Virus record (IMG/VR): IMGVR_UViG_3300007735_000543
Coordinates: 1 to 26,061 of that record
Strand: one strand, 5' to 3'
Length of the DNA stretch: 26,061 nt
Source: a virus
The first letter of the stretch is position 1. Every line of letters begins with the position of its first letter. Positions 3,399 to 24,895 of the stretch are shown one piece after another. A model generated the notes under the pieces. The model ran no database searches. It was not told the DNA's origin and was given only the letters and a program-made list of their open reading frames with translations. Position numbers and translations under genes: made by a program.

Positions 3399-5431
3399 AC
3401 TTGTCGATTAAGTGTTGTTTGAAATGCTTGTACTGCCGTATAAAAATTACTTGCATCTGTAGTTGTTAATCCATCCCCTATTGATGCAAATGCACATTGT
3501 TTTGTATTAAAAAATTCAGCATTATTATTTATACTGGCTGCAAGAATGTATACTTTAACATTGTTTCTTGACTCTGACAAGCTACCATTTGTAGCTGTAT
3601 TATTATTTCTTTTGCCAAATATTGATGTAGAACTTGTTCTTGAGGCTAAAAATAAGCCTTGTGAATTAGTTTCATTGACTCTTACTTGTGCGTCACTTGT
3701 CCCATTTGGATTATAATAAGTAAGTCCTCCACCATAGTGAATAGCTATTTGATTTGGATTTGTATAACCGCTACCATAACAACCTATATCGACTTTTGAT
3801 TCTGTTACTGCCGTACGAGAATAATAAGATAAATGACTTGAACCAGCACTATTGTGTAAAGATGGATTAAATCCAGTGTCCATGTACCCAGTTGTTCCGT
3901 TTGAAGTTATTCCATTTACACTATAAGTTATTGCGCCTCCAAATGTAGCAGTATAACTTGCTGATTTAAGATTTTGCGCACACGCAGCCGCGCTTGCTCC
4001 AACCATTGGATAAATAGCTTGCATTTTAGTCCATATTCCATTGGTTTTTAAATCGTTAATAAGTGTAGTAATTGCATTTTTTTCCGTTGTTGATAAACTT
4101 CCTCCAGCAGTTGTAACTCTTGCAAAGAAAGCCGCTGCATCACCATCTAATACATTTATATCAGATACCTGTGTTGCCGCTGCGTTTACACTTGCCGCTA
4201 CATTATCAACGGTGGTAAGCGTTGCACCTGTGATATTTGCACTTCCCGTAACACTTGCCGCCATCGTTGCCGTTCTAAACAAGTCAGCATTTGTACTTGT
4301 TGCCGTTGCTACCGCAGCTGCGACAAAGGTTACACCGATGCCAGCCTCTGCGCTACTGTTAGCAGTTGCCGTAGCACTTGCACTTATTATCCTTGTAATA
4401 AATGCATCTGCACTCGTTTGAGCCGTTGCCTCTGCCGCAGCGTTAACCGTGTAACTTAGTTGAGCATTAGCCGAAGTATTTGCCGTTGCCGTTGCATTAG
4501 CATTGACTGGTATAGTGATTTGTGCATCAGAAGATGTCTGAGCCGTAGCCGTAGCCGAAGCCTCAAGTACGCGCGTAAGTGTTGCAATGGCAGATGTATC
4601 AGCAGCCGTAGAAGGGCTACTTGCTAATGTAGCAATTCTTAGTATATCTGCCGTAGCTATGCCTGTTGCTGTAACACTTGCCTCAAATGTTACAAGACCT
4701 TGTTGTATAACATCAATGGCACTTGTAGCCGTAGCATTAGCAGTAAAGCTTGATGCTAATACTTTAGTAAGTTGGACATCTGCTGTGCTTGTAGCCGCAG
4801 CCTGTACGCTTGATGCAATATTTTCTACAATAGTAGCCGTTGCGCTAAGATTAGCACTTGCTGCTATGCTACTATTTATAGGAATAACTTTCGTAACATT
4901 TGCTGTAGATGTGCCATTGGCTAGAACAGAGGAAGCCACTTCGACAACACCTTGTTGTGCTGTTACAATTTCACCGATGGCAGAGGCAATAGCATTAGCC
5001 TGTCCAATAACAGACATTATTATTTTAAGATTAGCCGAAGTTGTAGCAATGCCTGTAACAGAGGCAGCTACGTTTACACCGGTAAGGATGTAGGAATCGT
5101 AGAACACACCTTGGAAGGAAATAAACCTTCTATCGTGACTAACTTTAATATTTTTAACTTGATATAACTTATCTCCCCACACTACACGAGATTCCTCTGT
5201 AATGGTGGATATATAACGAATGGTAAAATCACATACATTCTTTGCTGTGTTTTTACCATCTATAATAGTCTCATTTGATCCTGGTAACTTGCTTTCTGCA
5301 AATGCCCAGATAGTAGCCGTATCTGCCCAACTCTCGGAAGCAAAACCAGTTAAACTCCGTGACCGGTTAACATTCTGCAAGATAATCCTATCTCGCATTT
5401 TTCCAGTAACTTCGTTTTTGTTATACTTCAT
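3395..5431 (-). CDS. Head-closure protein fused to tandem repeats and adhesin-like C-terminus
   Basis: A 678-residue, three-part protein. Residues 1-115 look like a complete head-tail joining (SPP1 gp16/HK97-like head closure) protein: 'MRDRIILQN' start of the barrel, 'ESWADTATIWAFAE', 'DFTIRYISTI', 'WGDKLYQVKNI', 'RRFISFQGVFYD'. Residues about 119-427 are Ala/Thr/Ser-rich repeats, six of them exactly 20 residues long (291-410). Residues 428-678 form a different domain ('FFARVTTAGGSLSTTEK', 'GIWTKMQAIYPMVG', 'NGTTGYMDTGFNPS') of a type I associate with the ends of large tail or fibre proteins in Bacteroidota phages. The usual head-closure length is about 110, so the rest is an extension expected to project from the neck. 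It follows the gp6-type connector with a 1-base overlap, the normal place for head closure. Confidence 0.75.
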   Translation of the reverse strand: MKYNKNEVTGKMRDRIILQNVNRSRSLTGFASESWADTATIWAFAESKLPGSNETIIDGKNTAKNVCDFTIRYISTITEESRVVWGDKLYQVKNIKVSHDRRFISFQGVFYDSYILTGVNVAASVTGIATTSANLKIIMSVIGQANAIASAIGEIVTAQQGVVEVASSVLANGTSTANVTKVIPINSSIAASANLSATATIVENIASSVQAAATSTADVQLTKVLASSFTANATATSAIDVIQQGLVTFEASVTATGIATADILRIATLASSPSTAADTSAIATLTRVLEASATATAQTSSDAQITIPVNANATATANTSANAQLSYTVNAAAEATAQTSADAFITRIISASATATANSSAEAGIGVTFVAAAVATATSTNADLFRTATMAASVTGSANITGATLTTVDNVAASVNAAATQVSDINVLDGDAAAFFARVTTAGGSLSTTEKNAITTLINDLKTNGIWTKMQAIYPMVGASAAACAQNLKSASYTATFGGAITYSVNGITSNGTTGYMDTGFNPSLHNSAGSSHLSYYSRTAVTESKVDIGCYGSGYTNPNQIAIHYGGGLTYYNPNGTSDAQVRVNETNSQGLFLASRTSSTSIFGKRNNNTATNGSLSESRNNVKVYILAASINNNAEFFNTKQCAFASIGDGLTTTDASNFYTAVQAFQTTLNRQV
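4151..5077 (-). repeat. Tandem repeats coding for about fifteen 20-residue Ala/Thr/Ser-rich units
   Basis: This part of the fusion gene codes for about fifteen units of 17-23 residues. From residue 291 to 410 the phase is an exact 20 residues (60 bases): units begin ASATATAQTS, ANATATANTS, AAAEATAQTS, ASATATANSS, AAAVATATST and AASVTGSANI. Each unit is A-x-A-x-A-T-A-x-T-S, then A-D/N-A and a hydrophobic strand with one basic or polar residue. The alternation suggests stacked beta strands, as in fibrous or solenoid proteins. On the plus strand the repeats appear as recurrent gccgttgc-type motifs. Copy number may vary between related phages. Confidence 0.75.
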
Positions 5432-17591: not shown

Positions 17592-18005
17592 ATGAAAATT
17601 AACATGAATGAAATTTGGAATGAAGAGTTTTTAAGCTATGAAGCTAAATATGGAGAAGAACCGAAAATTATAGGGAAACACAATGTTTTTAAACATGTAA
17701 TTATTTGGCATGACCCAAAAACTACTCCAGTTTCTCAAGTCGTTCACTGGTCAAAATCTGAAGATTTGCAGCGTGATATGGTTGATTTAATGTTATTGAT
17801 AAAACATGAATCAGAAGATGAAAACGTTTTACAATTTGCAACAGGTATTTACATTGAAAGAGATAATATTCCAGAACCTATTTATGAATTTAGATATTGC
17901 GATGAAACAAAGAATTATATGTATGCTCCACCAGAGGGAGAAATTATTGCTTTTTCTTTAGTTTGTGATTTGCCTTTAATTATGAAATTTAATGAAAATG
18001 AATAA
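17592..18005 (+). CDS. Hypothetical protein
   Basis: A 137-residue acidic protein starting MKINMNEIWNEEFLSY. It is rich in Glu, Asp, aromatic residues and beta-like stretches ('VFKHVIIWHDPKTTPVSQVV', 'IAFSLVCDLPLIMKF'). I do not recognise a family; small SUFU-like or other acidic proteins would look similar. The start at 17592 gives 1-base spacing from the preceding gene; a start at 17544 would read out of frame through it. It is the last gene before the non-coding RNA region. Confidence 0.5.
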   Translation: MKINMNEIWNEEFLSYEAKYGEEPKIIGKHNVFKHVIIWHDPKTTPVSQVVHWSKSEDLQRDMVDLMLLIKHESEDENVLQFATGIYIERDNIPEPIYEFRYCDETKNYMYAPPEGEIIAFSLVCDLPLIMKFNENE

Positions 18006-18023
18006 TATCTAAAAGAAATTTTG

Positions 18024-18034
18024 TATATTTTTTG
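18024..18034 (+). promoter_or_regulatory. Promoter-like sequence before structured RNA A
   Basis: TATATTTTTTG at 18024-18034, within a block from about 18012 that closely repeats the sequence at 18241-18267 in front of RNA B (GAA, ATTTTGTATATTT, then GATTAAA). Here three extra Ts separate TATATTT from G, so the TAnnTTTG match is broken. No -33 TTG is evident. Confidence 0.4.
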
Positions 18035-18040
18035 ATTAAA

Positions 18041-18216
18041 AAATATAATTAACGGTAAGTAGGCTTGAAAGTAGCCAGCTTTTAAAGAGTTGTCCCTGAA
18101 ATAATGGGAGCGTACGGACAAAAAGTCAGCATCCTGGGAATATCGTTATAGGGTGTCGCACGTAGGTTGTAACGAGCCTCGTATCTTGGTGTTAAAACAC
18201 ACCGTTAATTTTTTAT
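18041..18216 (+). ncRNA. Structured RNA A, candidate novel ncRNA
   Basis: A 367-base gene-free stretch begins here. A perfect 10-base-pair closing helix joins AATTAACGGT (18047-18056) to ACCGTTAATT (18201-18210). Inside are hairpins GGCT/AGCC (18062-18065/18073-18076), TTGTCC/GGACAA (18090-18095/18116-18121), CATCCT/AGGGTG (18130-18135/18150-18155), ACG-AGG/CCT-CGT with one bulged T (18160-18166/18177-18182), and GTGT/ACAC (18189-18192/18197-18200). The loops of the third and fourth pair over 7 bases (TCGTTAT 18143-18149 with GTAACGA 18169-18175), a kissing interaction. A T run follows at 18209-18214, as in a terminator. Base composition is GC-richer than the flanks. It contains no plausible open frame. 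I cannot match it to a known RNA family from memory. Confidence 0.6.
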
Positions 18217-18253
18217 TATTAAAAAACAAAAGAAATAAGTAAAAAGAATTTTG

Positions 18254-18261
18254 TATATTTG
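18254..18261 (+). promoter_or_regulatory. -7 promoter element before structured RNA B
   Basis: TATATTTG is an exact TAnnTTTG match. A start about 6-7 bases later places the first base at about 18267, two bases before the first hairpin of RNA B. No -33 TTG is seen at the expected position. The surrounding block is a near copy of the one at 18012-18040. Confidence 0.55.
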
Positions 18262-18266
18262 ATTAA

Positions 18267-18366
18267 ACTTTTTGCAGGAAGCACTACCCAGCAAAAGGTA
18301 TTTGAGGAAATCATTTACCTCATAAGCCCGTAAAGAGTAGTGCCTTTATGGGCTTTATTAATTTTA
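18267..18366 (+). ncRNA. Structured RNA B with loop-loop pairing, candidate sRNA or leader
   Basis: Three hairpins: TTTTGC/GCAAAA (18270-18275/18291-18296, 15-base loop); GAGG/CCTC (18304-18307/18318-18321), with AGGTA/TACCT as an alternative; and a 12-base-pair stem AAGCCCGTAAAG/CTTTATGGGCTT (18324-18335/18344-18355, one G-U) with loop AGTAGTGC. The first loop contains GCACTAC (18281-18287), which is perfectly complementary to GTAGTGC (18337-18343) in the last loop, a 7-base kissing or pseudoknot contact. The last stem is followed by TTATTAATTTTAT, a terminator-like tail. The GIY-YIG-like gene starts 7 bases later, so it may be a leader that controls that gene rather than a separate RNA. Confidence 0.6.
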
Positions 18367-18372
18367 TAGATT

Positions 18373-19131
18373 ATGACAGAAAATAAATATACTTACGTTT
18401 TATTTACACAAAACAGAGATAACAGCACTATAGGTGCGTATAAATTTGGATTTTCAAGAGATATAGAAGGAGTTTATAAAAGATGTAAAAATGGTAATAC
18501 ATGGTTAACTCATCTTGAAGTTGTATGTTATTGCGATTTTAATATTATTACAGAAAAACAATTAAAACATAAATATAAAAATAGTAGGAAAACTAAAGAA
18601 TGGTTTTCATTAACTAAAAGTGATTTGCAAGAAATACAATCATTTATGTCAAAGAAATTTAGACATGAAAATGTTGAAAATAATAATTTGATATATTTAA
18701 AATCAAATAACAATTTATTGTATAATGAAAAAATTATTAATAAAAAAATAGATAATAATATTACAAGGGAAGTTCATAAAGAAATTTATTTTATTGATGG
18801 AATATCATATGGATGGGGATGTGTTATATCAAGTGGTTTTGGCAAATTTTCTAAAGGATTTGCAAAATTAAATAATAATTTTTGTGATTTTATTACAGAA
18901 AATTATAGTATAGAAAACGAAAGATTTTATCATTTTTATAATGAGTTTTTAAATTGTCATAAAATGTACCCATATCATTTACTTAGAGTATTATTATTTT
19001 CTGTTTTAATGAGTGAAATACTTACTGATAAAGTATTAGGTACTGATATATTTATAAAACACGCATTAAAAAATTGCAATGGTAATCCTGAGGATTATGT
19101 TTACGGAAAAAAATATTTAGCATTACAATAA
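18373..19131 (+). CDS. GIY-YIG-like protein (T5orf172/Mug113 type N-terminus)
   Basis: A 252-residue protein. Residues 6-90 fit the T5orf172/Mug113 branch of the GIY-YIG nuclease fold: 'YTYVLFTQNRD' (first strand), 'YKFGFSRDIEG' (23-33, the degenerate YIG strand with K24 and G26), R37, 'TEKQLKHKYK' with E61, and 'TKEWFSLTKSDL' (74-85, W77/F78). Residues 100-252 are Asn/Lys/Ile-rich and of unknown function. Codon use is extremely AT-rich (long A and T runs), unlike the neighbouring replication genes, which suggests separate acquisition. It follows structured RNA B directly and precedes the initiator gene by 5 bases. Confidence 0.6.
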   Translation: MTENKYTYVLFTQNRDNSTIGAYKFGFSRDIEGVYKRCKNGNTWLTHLEVVCYCDFNIITEKQLKHKYKNSRKTKEWFSLTKSDLQEIQSFMSKKFRHENVENNNLIYLKSNNNLLYNEKIINKKIDNNITREVHKEIYFIDGISYGWGCVISSGFGKFSKGFAKLNNNFCDFITENYSIENERFYHFYNEFLNCHKMYPYHLLRVLLFSVLMSEILTDKVLGTDIFIKHALKNCNGNPEDYVYGKKYLALQ

Positions 19132-24442: not shown

Positions 24443-24603
24443 AGCAAGGTGGCGGAATTGGTAAACGCTAATTGAAATGACCATTATAGAGCAAGATAAA
24501 CGCCAGCTAAGTAATGTTTAATGCCTTTGGGTACTGGGTTTTAATAATGGAGATTGTAAATACAAGTATGTTGCTCATGCAGGTTCGAATCCTGCCCTTG
24601 CTA
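24443..24603 (+). tRNA. tRNA-Leu-like gene with a 110-base middle
   Basis: The ends are those of a leucine-type tRNA: acceptor AGCAAGG (24443-24449) with CCTTGCT (24596-24602), TG at 8-9, D-arm GCG/CGC (24452-24454/24466-24468) with loop GAATTGGTAAA, and T-arm GCAGG/CCTGC around TTCGAAT (24579-24595), discriminator A603. No CCA is encoded. Between D- and T-arms there are 110 bases instead of about 34, with no clear 5-base-pair, 7-base-loop anticodon arm. Two strong helices in the middle conflict: GAGCAA/TTGCTC (24489-24494/24571-24576, adjoining the T-arm) and CCATTAT/ATAATGG (24481-24487/24544-24550), which together would make a pseudoknot. It may be an intron-bearing tRNA, a decayed one, or a tRNA-like RNA. 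Confidence 0.55.
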
Positions 24604-24740: not shown

Positions 24741-24863
24741 AGCAAGGTGGCGGAATTGGTAGACGCAAAAAACTGCAATCAGGTTTATGAATCCTGACGT
24801 TAAACAAAAAACTATCAGCGCAGGAGTGCGGAAGCTATGCGGGTTCGATTCCCGCCCTTGCTG
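24741..24863 (+). tRNA. tRNA-Leu-like gene with a 72-base middle
   Basis: The ends duplicate those of the gene at 24443: acceptor AGCAAGG (24741-24747) with CCTTGCT (24856-24862), D-arm GCG/CGC with loop GAATTGGTAGA, and T-arm GCGGG/CCCGC around TTCGATT (24839-24855). The position after the acceptor is G (Leu tRNAs normally have A) and no CCA is encoded. The middle has 72 bases. It contains TCAGG/CCTGA (24779-24783/24793-24797) with a 9-base loop TTTATGAAT, CGCA/TGCG (24819-24822/24827-24830) like a variable arm, and CTGC/GCAG (24773-24776/24820-24823). The repeat AAAAAACT occurs at 24767 and 24806; removal of one repeat plus spacer (39 bases) leaves 33 bases, near normal. No canonical anticodon arm follows either way. 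Confidence 0.55.
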
Positions 24864-24895
24864 CTTTTTGTACACAAGTAATATTAAACCATTTC

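Follow-up and report, generated by a model that had tools for sequence, protein, structure and literature searches.

The window analysed here is a 26,061-nt stretch of viral DNA (IMG/VR record IMGVR_UViG_3300007735_000543, positions 1 to 26,061). Between a small gene that ends at 18005 and a GIY-YIG-like gene that begins at 18373 lies a stretch without genes (18006-18372). The first-pass annotation had placed two strongly folded RNAs here, A and B, each behind a near-identical block and each closed by a stem with a T-rich tail. The sequence, the coordinates and the absence of genes all checked out, and both RNAs fold better than dinucleotide shuffles, RNA B by a wide margin (z = -2.5 for RNA A and z = -4.7 for RNA B). 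Within the window, the 11-mer TTTGTATATTT has just two exact copies, at 18020 and 18250; the complete blocks read ATTTTGTATATTT-TTT-GATTAAA (18018-18040) before A and ATTTTGTATATTT-GATTAAA (18248-18267) before B. The stem and T-rich tail were seen at the end of each RNA, and a Pfam MUG113 domain was found in the next gene, in agreement with its description as GIY-YIG-like. The refined limits are 18046-18213 for RNA A, from the covariance model, and 18268-18355 (P1 to terminator) plus a U-tract for RNA B. The features are as follows, with GAC denoting the GTPase-associated centre and 23S rRNA numbered as in E. coli.

18018..18040, + strand: promoter-like block of RNA A, ATTTTGTATATTTTTTGATTAAA, with an imperfect TAnnTTTG element; near copy before RNA B
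18046..18213, + strand: RNA A, a stand-alone GAC RNA with an insert in H44 (cmsearch, 73.9 bits, E = 2.1e-22)
18047..18055, + strand: 5' strand of P1, equivalent to distal H42 of 23S rRNA; partner 18202-18210
18057..18081, + strand: H43 of the GAC (E. coli 1057-1081), with the top covarying pair 1058-1080 (covariation, window pairing)
18082..18089, + strand: segment 1082-1089, with the tertiary pair 1082/1086 and the invariant A1088 (covariation, window pairing)
18090..18184, + strand: variable insert of 95 nt in the 5' strand of H44 (family range 24-365 nt)
18185..18204, + strand: conserved 3' block CTTGGTGTTAAAACACACCG, comprising the H44 apical stem-loop (1091-1100) and the return strand
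18202..18217, + strand: 3' strand of P1, then a T-rich terminator-like tail (sequence; P1 pairing)
18248..18267, + strand: promoter-like block of RNA B, containing TATATTTG (-7 element of Bacteroidota type); such an element lies ahead of nearly every B homologue
18268..18298, + strand: RNA B hairpin P1, loop GCACTAC (18281-18287)
18303..18322, + strand: RNA B hairpin P2 (TGAGG...CCTCA)
18324..18363, + strand: RNA B hairpin P3, an intrinsic terminator with U-tract, loop GTAGTGC (18337-18343)
18373..19131, + strand: cargo gene after B, GIY-YIG-like protein with a MUG113 domain (Pfam)

RNA A is almost certainly a free-standing RNA with the GAC fold, a copy of the 23S rRNA centre at E. coli 1051-1108. 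The first lead came from a permissive BLAST search with a 373-nt query, which gave short, weak intergenic matches in two unrelated phages, Acinetobacter phage ME3 and Aeromonas phage 4_4572; the 3-kb region, used directly as a BLAST query against phages, gave no match. Both phage loci contain the blocks GGAAGTTGGCTTAGAAGCAGCCATCTTTTAAAGAGTG and CTTTGGCGTAATAGCACACC, with a variable stretch between them and a stem that closes both. Each position of the two conserved blocks of RNA A has its counterpart in E. coli 1046-1089 and 1091-1113. At its positions 1081-1156, the Rfam model of the bacterial LSU (RF02541) matched the RNA of phage 4_4572 (E = 8.3e-6, below the gathering score), and no match to this model was listed for the window copy. 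We also searched with the 58-mer of the E. coli GAC. It matches 5375 of 5426 E. coli genomes, where 23S is the annotation among the matches listed, and it also matches GAP32, XacN1, CBB, BF, pf16 and others outside rRNA genes. The sites in these jumbo phages are unannotated or, in two cases, assigned to a hypothetical protein.

Pattern searches extended the family considerably. The 5'-block pattern alone gave 39 viral contigs, 36 of them with the 3' block downstream, and the 3'-block pattern alone gave at least 120 viral stretches. By descriptor or covariance model, 148 of the 152 viral stretches fetched by the two short patterns are members, and homologues of RNA A occur in more than 140 viral contigs besides the group that bears RNA B. 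A covariance model built from 38 members, with the window and its two close relatives left out, found the window copy at 18046-18213 with 73.9 bits (E = 2.1e-22). RNA A is present in twelve cultured phages, including GAP32, CBB, ME3 and pf16. The scores are 75 bits for ME3, 92 bits for 4_4572 and 42-103 bits for ten cultured phages with Xanthomonas, Vibrio, Serratia, Pseudomonas, Erwinia, Cronobacter and Pectobacterium hosts. In the twelve examined, the RNA is intergenic by annotation or overlapped by antisense hypothetical ORFs only; in GAP32, for example, it occupies the gap between GAP32_395 and GAP32_396. The rest of the 23S sequence is absent around RNA A, which is flanked by genes or tRNAs with no other LSU match.

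Several related observations were made in the course of these searches. In Xanthomonas phage XacN1 (L304, 29-679), RNA A lies directly after a gene annotated as 2'-5' RNA ligase. One phage locus, L200, contains several GAC-type copies (2700-2896, 3887-4051 and 4760-5057), and L308 and L313 likewise contain more than one (357-684 and about 693-870); the extra copies are sometimes weak. A free-standing GAC-like RNA without the insert was seen at Nostocales loci (L246, L258, L267, L271, L280, L300 and L303), inside a conserved RNA located 5' of a conserved protein of about 276 aa that has no Pfam match above the cut-off. The L246 copy matches the Rfam LSU model at 1093-1148 with 52 bits. Finally, 58 matches in genome_contigs with the phage-type 5' block are for the most part real 23S rRNA from mycoplasmas, phytoplasmas and bacteria of candidate phyla. 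Because these genuine rRNAs carry that block, the A1058-U1080 pair alone is not phage-specific.

We then calculated mutual information on 96 distinct RNA A cores in a fixed frame, with no structure presupposed. The pair 1058-1080 ranked first, followed by the pairs at the base of the insert, the pairs of P1 (1046-1113 to 1054-1105, the H42 tip), 1082-1086, and 1092-1099 with 1072. The triple 1072/1092/1099 is C/C-G in 65 cores and U/U-A in 31, with no exceptions, and U1060 and A1088 are each found in 96 of 96. The triple was also obeyed in all 36 members (24 + 12) of the subset fetched by the 5' pattern, which leaves 1072, 1092 and 1099 free. In the 3'-pattern subset, all 72 members have a standard pair at 1058/1080, and 69 of the 72 have one at 1082/1086. 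The covariation score, by count of RNA A pairs, was 0.651, compared with 0.178 for shuffled data and at most 0.174 with slid partners. Two-sided changes were found in 17 of the 21 pairs. For the H43 stem (1057-1064/1074-1081), 99.6% of cells are paired and four of six pairs show two-sided changes, while 1082/1086 are paired in 97% of cores and also in the window copy. The first-pass annotation had named a lack of compensatory base changes in homologues and a conserved reading frame among the results that would speak against it. Both checks favour structure: compensatory changes are many in both RNAs, and no conserved frame runs through RNA A, whose insert lengths are not multiples of three.

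The contacts 1072-(1092-1099), 1082-1086 and U1060-A1088 are tertiary contacts in crystal structures of the GAC with L11. Given that both the stems and the contacts 1082/1086 and 1072/1092/1099 covary, selection maintains the three-dimensional fold of RNA A. A functionless relic of 23S rRNA taken up by phages would account for the sequence similarity, but not for a triple that covaries without exception, for the replacement of pairs across very diverged phages or for the common site of the insert; the covariation excludes this explanation.

The window copy is a divergent member, with G1067, U1095, G1078 and non-standard pairs at the base of the insert. All P1, H43 and inner H44 pairs are nevertheless possible in it, including the nine pairs of P1, all of which show two-sided changes across the family. 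Its triple is U/U-A, with 1092/1099 at window positions 18190/18197, and the partner of A1088 is U1060 at 18060. Unconstrained folding gives other local pairings (-46.4 kcal/mol versus -38.2 kcal/mol with the GAC stems enforced), a preference that is unsurprising where a fold depends on tertiary contacts and protein.

RNA A and the bacterial 23S GAC (H42 tip, H43 and H44; RF02541) share both blocks, the secondary structure, the covariation at 1082/1086 and 1072/1092/1099, and the invariant U1060 and A1088. RNA A differs in being a free-standing phage gene with its own closing stem, an insert of 24-365 nt in H44 and A at position 1101. This A occurs in all members, and the 23S copies compared have U, so that RNA A and rRNA differ in the outer part of H44. 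All phage members have the insert, which lies in the 5' strand of H44 and begins directly with the covarying stem that closes it. Clustering gave two larger groups of 15 and 6 members and many singletons. Most inserts are unrelated to those of other members, and on average they fold hardly better than shuffled sequences (mean z = -0.8). A recurring insert subfamily with the motifs GCACCCCGTAA and TGGTAAGGC was seen in L068, L075, L080, L097, L147, L149, L151 and others.

The neighbourhood of RNA A was also analysed. A tRNA gene lies within 10 nt at 30 of 96 loci, always on the same strand, compared with 3.3 at random placement; the 3' side often holds a tRNA gene a few nucleotides away, or unrelated proteins. 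GOLLD and ROOL are likewise non-coding, structured and often found in phages near tRNA genes. Unlike them, RNA A has an rRNA domain as its core, and the member loci scanned gave no Rfam match to either. In the window itself, two tandem tRNA-Leu-like RNAs lie on the + strand at 24444-24603 and 24741-24865, with matching acceptor stems (AGCAAGG/CCTTGCT) and with D and T arms, but with an anticodon/variable region enlarged by long insertions. The Rfam tRNA model accepts the second only (36.8 bits, 123 nt), and ARAGORN calls neither.

The GAC is the ribosomal site that is bound by uL11 and serves EF-G, EF-Tu, IF2 and RelA. As the tertiary contacts are kept outside the ribosome, the partner of RNA A would be a molecule that reads this tertiary fold, and uL11, which does so in the crystal structures, is the obvious candidate. 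The known RNAs that imitate rRNA sites are the leaders of ribosomal protein mRNAs (L10(L12)4, L1 and S15), which, like RNA A, reproduce a protein-binding site of rRNA outside the ribosome. We considered whether RNA A could be a cis-regulatory leader of a ribosomal-protein-like gene, such as an autoregulatory leader of L11. However, no L11 gene was found in 50 phage records with RNA A, although the control was positive in 14 of 14 genomes, and what comes next is often a tRNA gene or else unrelated proteins. RNA A differs from these leaders in being phage-borne, in imitating the uL11 site and in having no ribosomal-protein gene behind it, so that a cis-acting role is very improbable. Without an L11 gene in the phage records, the target would be the protein of the host.

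On these grounds we propose that RNA A is transcribed, would fold into the GAC and would bind host uL11 in trans. We infer this partner from the known recognition of the GAC tertiary fold by uL11, and such binding seems reasonably likely from the conserved contacts. The insert, which interrupts the helix of H44, would probably prevent a role as rRNA, carry an effector part, or both. The least certain step is that, during infection, uL11 may be diverted or kept away from ribosomes, which would change how factors bind and how starvation is signalled through RelA. That RNA A acts by withholding or diverting uL11, with effects on translation factors and the RelA-dependent response, is offered tentatively.

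Two other trans-acting roles were weighed against this proposal. RNA A could be a decoy for an agent that attacks or modifies the GAC, such as a host defence RNase or toxin, a methyltransferase or a thiopeptide antibiotic. The fold and most loop residues match such a target, and RNA A sits among phage tRNAs, which often replace tRNAs cut by defence enzymes. However, thiopeptides need A1067 and A1095, which are changed in 24 and 4 of the 96 cores, respectively, and we know of no defence enzyme that cuts the GAC; we consider the decoy distinctly improbable. Somewhat less improbable, but still unlikely, is a scaffold in which uL11, with or without the stalk, serves as cofactor of a phage RNP, so that the function resides in the insert and interference with the ribosome is incidental. 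The presence of an insert in every phage member, its covarying closing stem and the recurring subfamilies of 15 and 6 members are consistent with this, and the recruitment of bS1 and uS10 by other phages is a precedent (PMC10931766). On the other hand, inserts that are mostly unrelated and fold barely better than shuffled sequences are not what a scaffold would lead one to expect. In a review of what ribosomal proteins do outside the ribosome, uL11 is mentioned solely as a member of its operon and of the base of the stalk (PMC10931766).

RNA B belongs to a separate family that occurs in Bacteroidota-type phages. It lies behind TATATTTG, which we take to be a host-type promoter with the Bacteroidota -7 element TAnnTTTG; a TAnnTTT element stands ahead of nearly every copy. 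The loop of the terminator hairpin P3, GTAGTGC, is complementary to the P1 loop, GCACTAC. A descriptor that calls for a hairpin-loop 7-mer complementary to the terminator loop gave 69 units in phage loci of the Bacteroidota type, whereas about 210 loci of other kinds gave none; in named phages, only short chance matches to B-type RNA were seen. Because a MAFFT alignment placed P1 off by one column in part of the set, loop pairing was tested with an alignment-free descriptor that did not require complementarity. Of the 29 promoter-hairpin-terminator units it gave, 28 showed loop complementarity over 7-8 nt, compared with about 10% of shuffled loops, and the single exception does not resemble the family. 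About a dozen loop alleles were found: GCACTAC, GTGCAAG, GTGATAG, GTAGACA, GTAGGAG, GTAGCAG, GTGGAAG, GTGAAGG, GTAGAGC, GTCGAGC, CTAGACA and GTGGACG. Two-sided changes occur in 15 of the 17 predicted P1 and P3 pairs, and L130 and others have a different complementary stem in place of P2.

The layout of RNA B is that of an attenuator, with a promoter, a leader and a terminator directly before the start codon, an ATG lying within about 20 nt of the U-tract. Nine groups of genes follow it in relatives, among them those for MT-A70, Dam and N6/N4 methylases and for HNH, GIY-YIG and replication-type HTH proteins. Since it precedes so many unrelated genes, RNA B looks like a leader or attenuator, and from its layout we infer a portable leader whose loop-locked terminator would control termination. 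The P1 loop would pair with the terminator loop, most likely intramolecularly, and so set the read-through into whichever gene follows. Where a genome has two copies, their loop alleles differ, and this favours intramolecular pairing. The same observation is what one would expect of self-specific pairing in a stable trans-acting sRNA that ends at the terminator, with the next gene expressed from another promoter or by incidental read-through. Such an sRNA would also explain the separate promoter and the strong terminator; however, the next ATG lies near the U-tract whatever the gene, as in a leader, and we regard the sRNA as a rather unlikely alternative. RNA B as a leader shares with terminator attenuators the promoter, the leader hairpins and the intrinsic terminator before a start codon, and with loop-loop RNAs (phi29 pRNA, ColE1 RNA I/II) the complementary loops that change together. 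What sets it apart from both is that the terminator loop itself would pair with the first loop, in about a dozen alleles and before unrelated genes. No mutually exclusive stem, as for an alternative antiterminator pairing, was found in RNA B; the loops would kiss instead.

What is the relation between the two RNAs? The first-pass annotation had suggested a coordinated pair, possibly forming a unit with the nuclease gene. The stretch does have two independent RNAs with structure, and a promoter-like block lies in front of each, but the coordination did not hold: the two occur apart, and among 35 viral records of the group with RNA B, RNA A was found in just two. In these two (L070 and L098), A is followed by a B with a different allele, GTAGCAG. 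In L130, the same upstream gene runs directly into B with no A between, so that A looks inserted and the promoter block duplicated. The arrangement in the window is thus best seen, on the comparison of these loci, as a probable insertion of RNA A between the upstream gene and B that duplicated the block. The proposed RNA-plus-nuclease unit was abandoned, given the nine groups of genes after B and the varied neighbours of A. An RNA of an RNA-guided nuclease (omega- or HEARO-like) was rejected for the same lack of a constant nuclease partner. In other words, both RNAs are real and structured, their pairing is not, and the link of either to a nuclease is incidental.

With Rfam 15, neither RNA in the window matched a family at gathering or permissive thresholds; in the phage loci scanned, only tRNA scored above gathering, and the Nostocales L246 RNA matched the LSU model as given above. 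No earlier description of either RNA was found in the open full-text papers searched. RNA A is thus a widespread and apparently undescribed family of phage RNAs. Taken together, we consider it probable that RNA A is a GAC copy that would capture host uL11, and that RNA B is an unrelated promoter-leader-terminator unit in which loop pairing would set read-through. The chances seem evenly balanced that many diverse phages, some of them in culture, carry trans-acting RNAs that imitate the GAC in three dimensions, capture host uL11 or factors acting at that site and may thereby reprogramme translation or starvation signalling.

RNA B adds a compact leader family with about a dozen loop-loop alleles that change in step. 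The RNA A family is a natural set of GAC variants outside the ribosome, and it cautions against reading every short 23S-like stretch in a phage genome as contamination. RNA A is common, it occurs in cultured phages with harmless hosts (pf16, for example, infects Pseudomonas putida), and the atomic detail available for its fold allows a guess at the partner, which makes the proposal directly testable. If it is true, viral RNA imitation of a ribosomal functional centre would be a new way to manipulate host translation.
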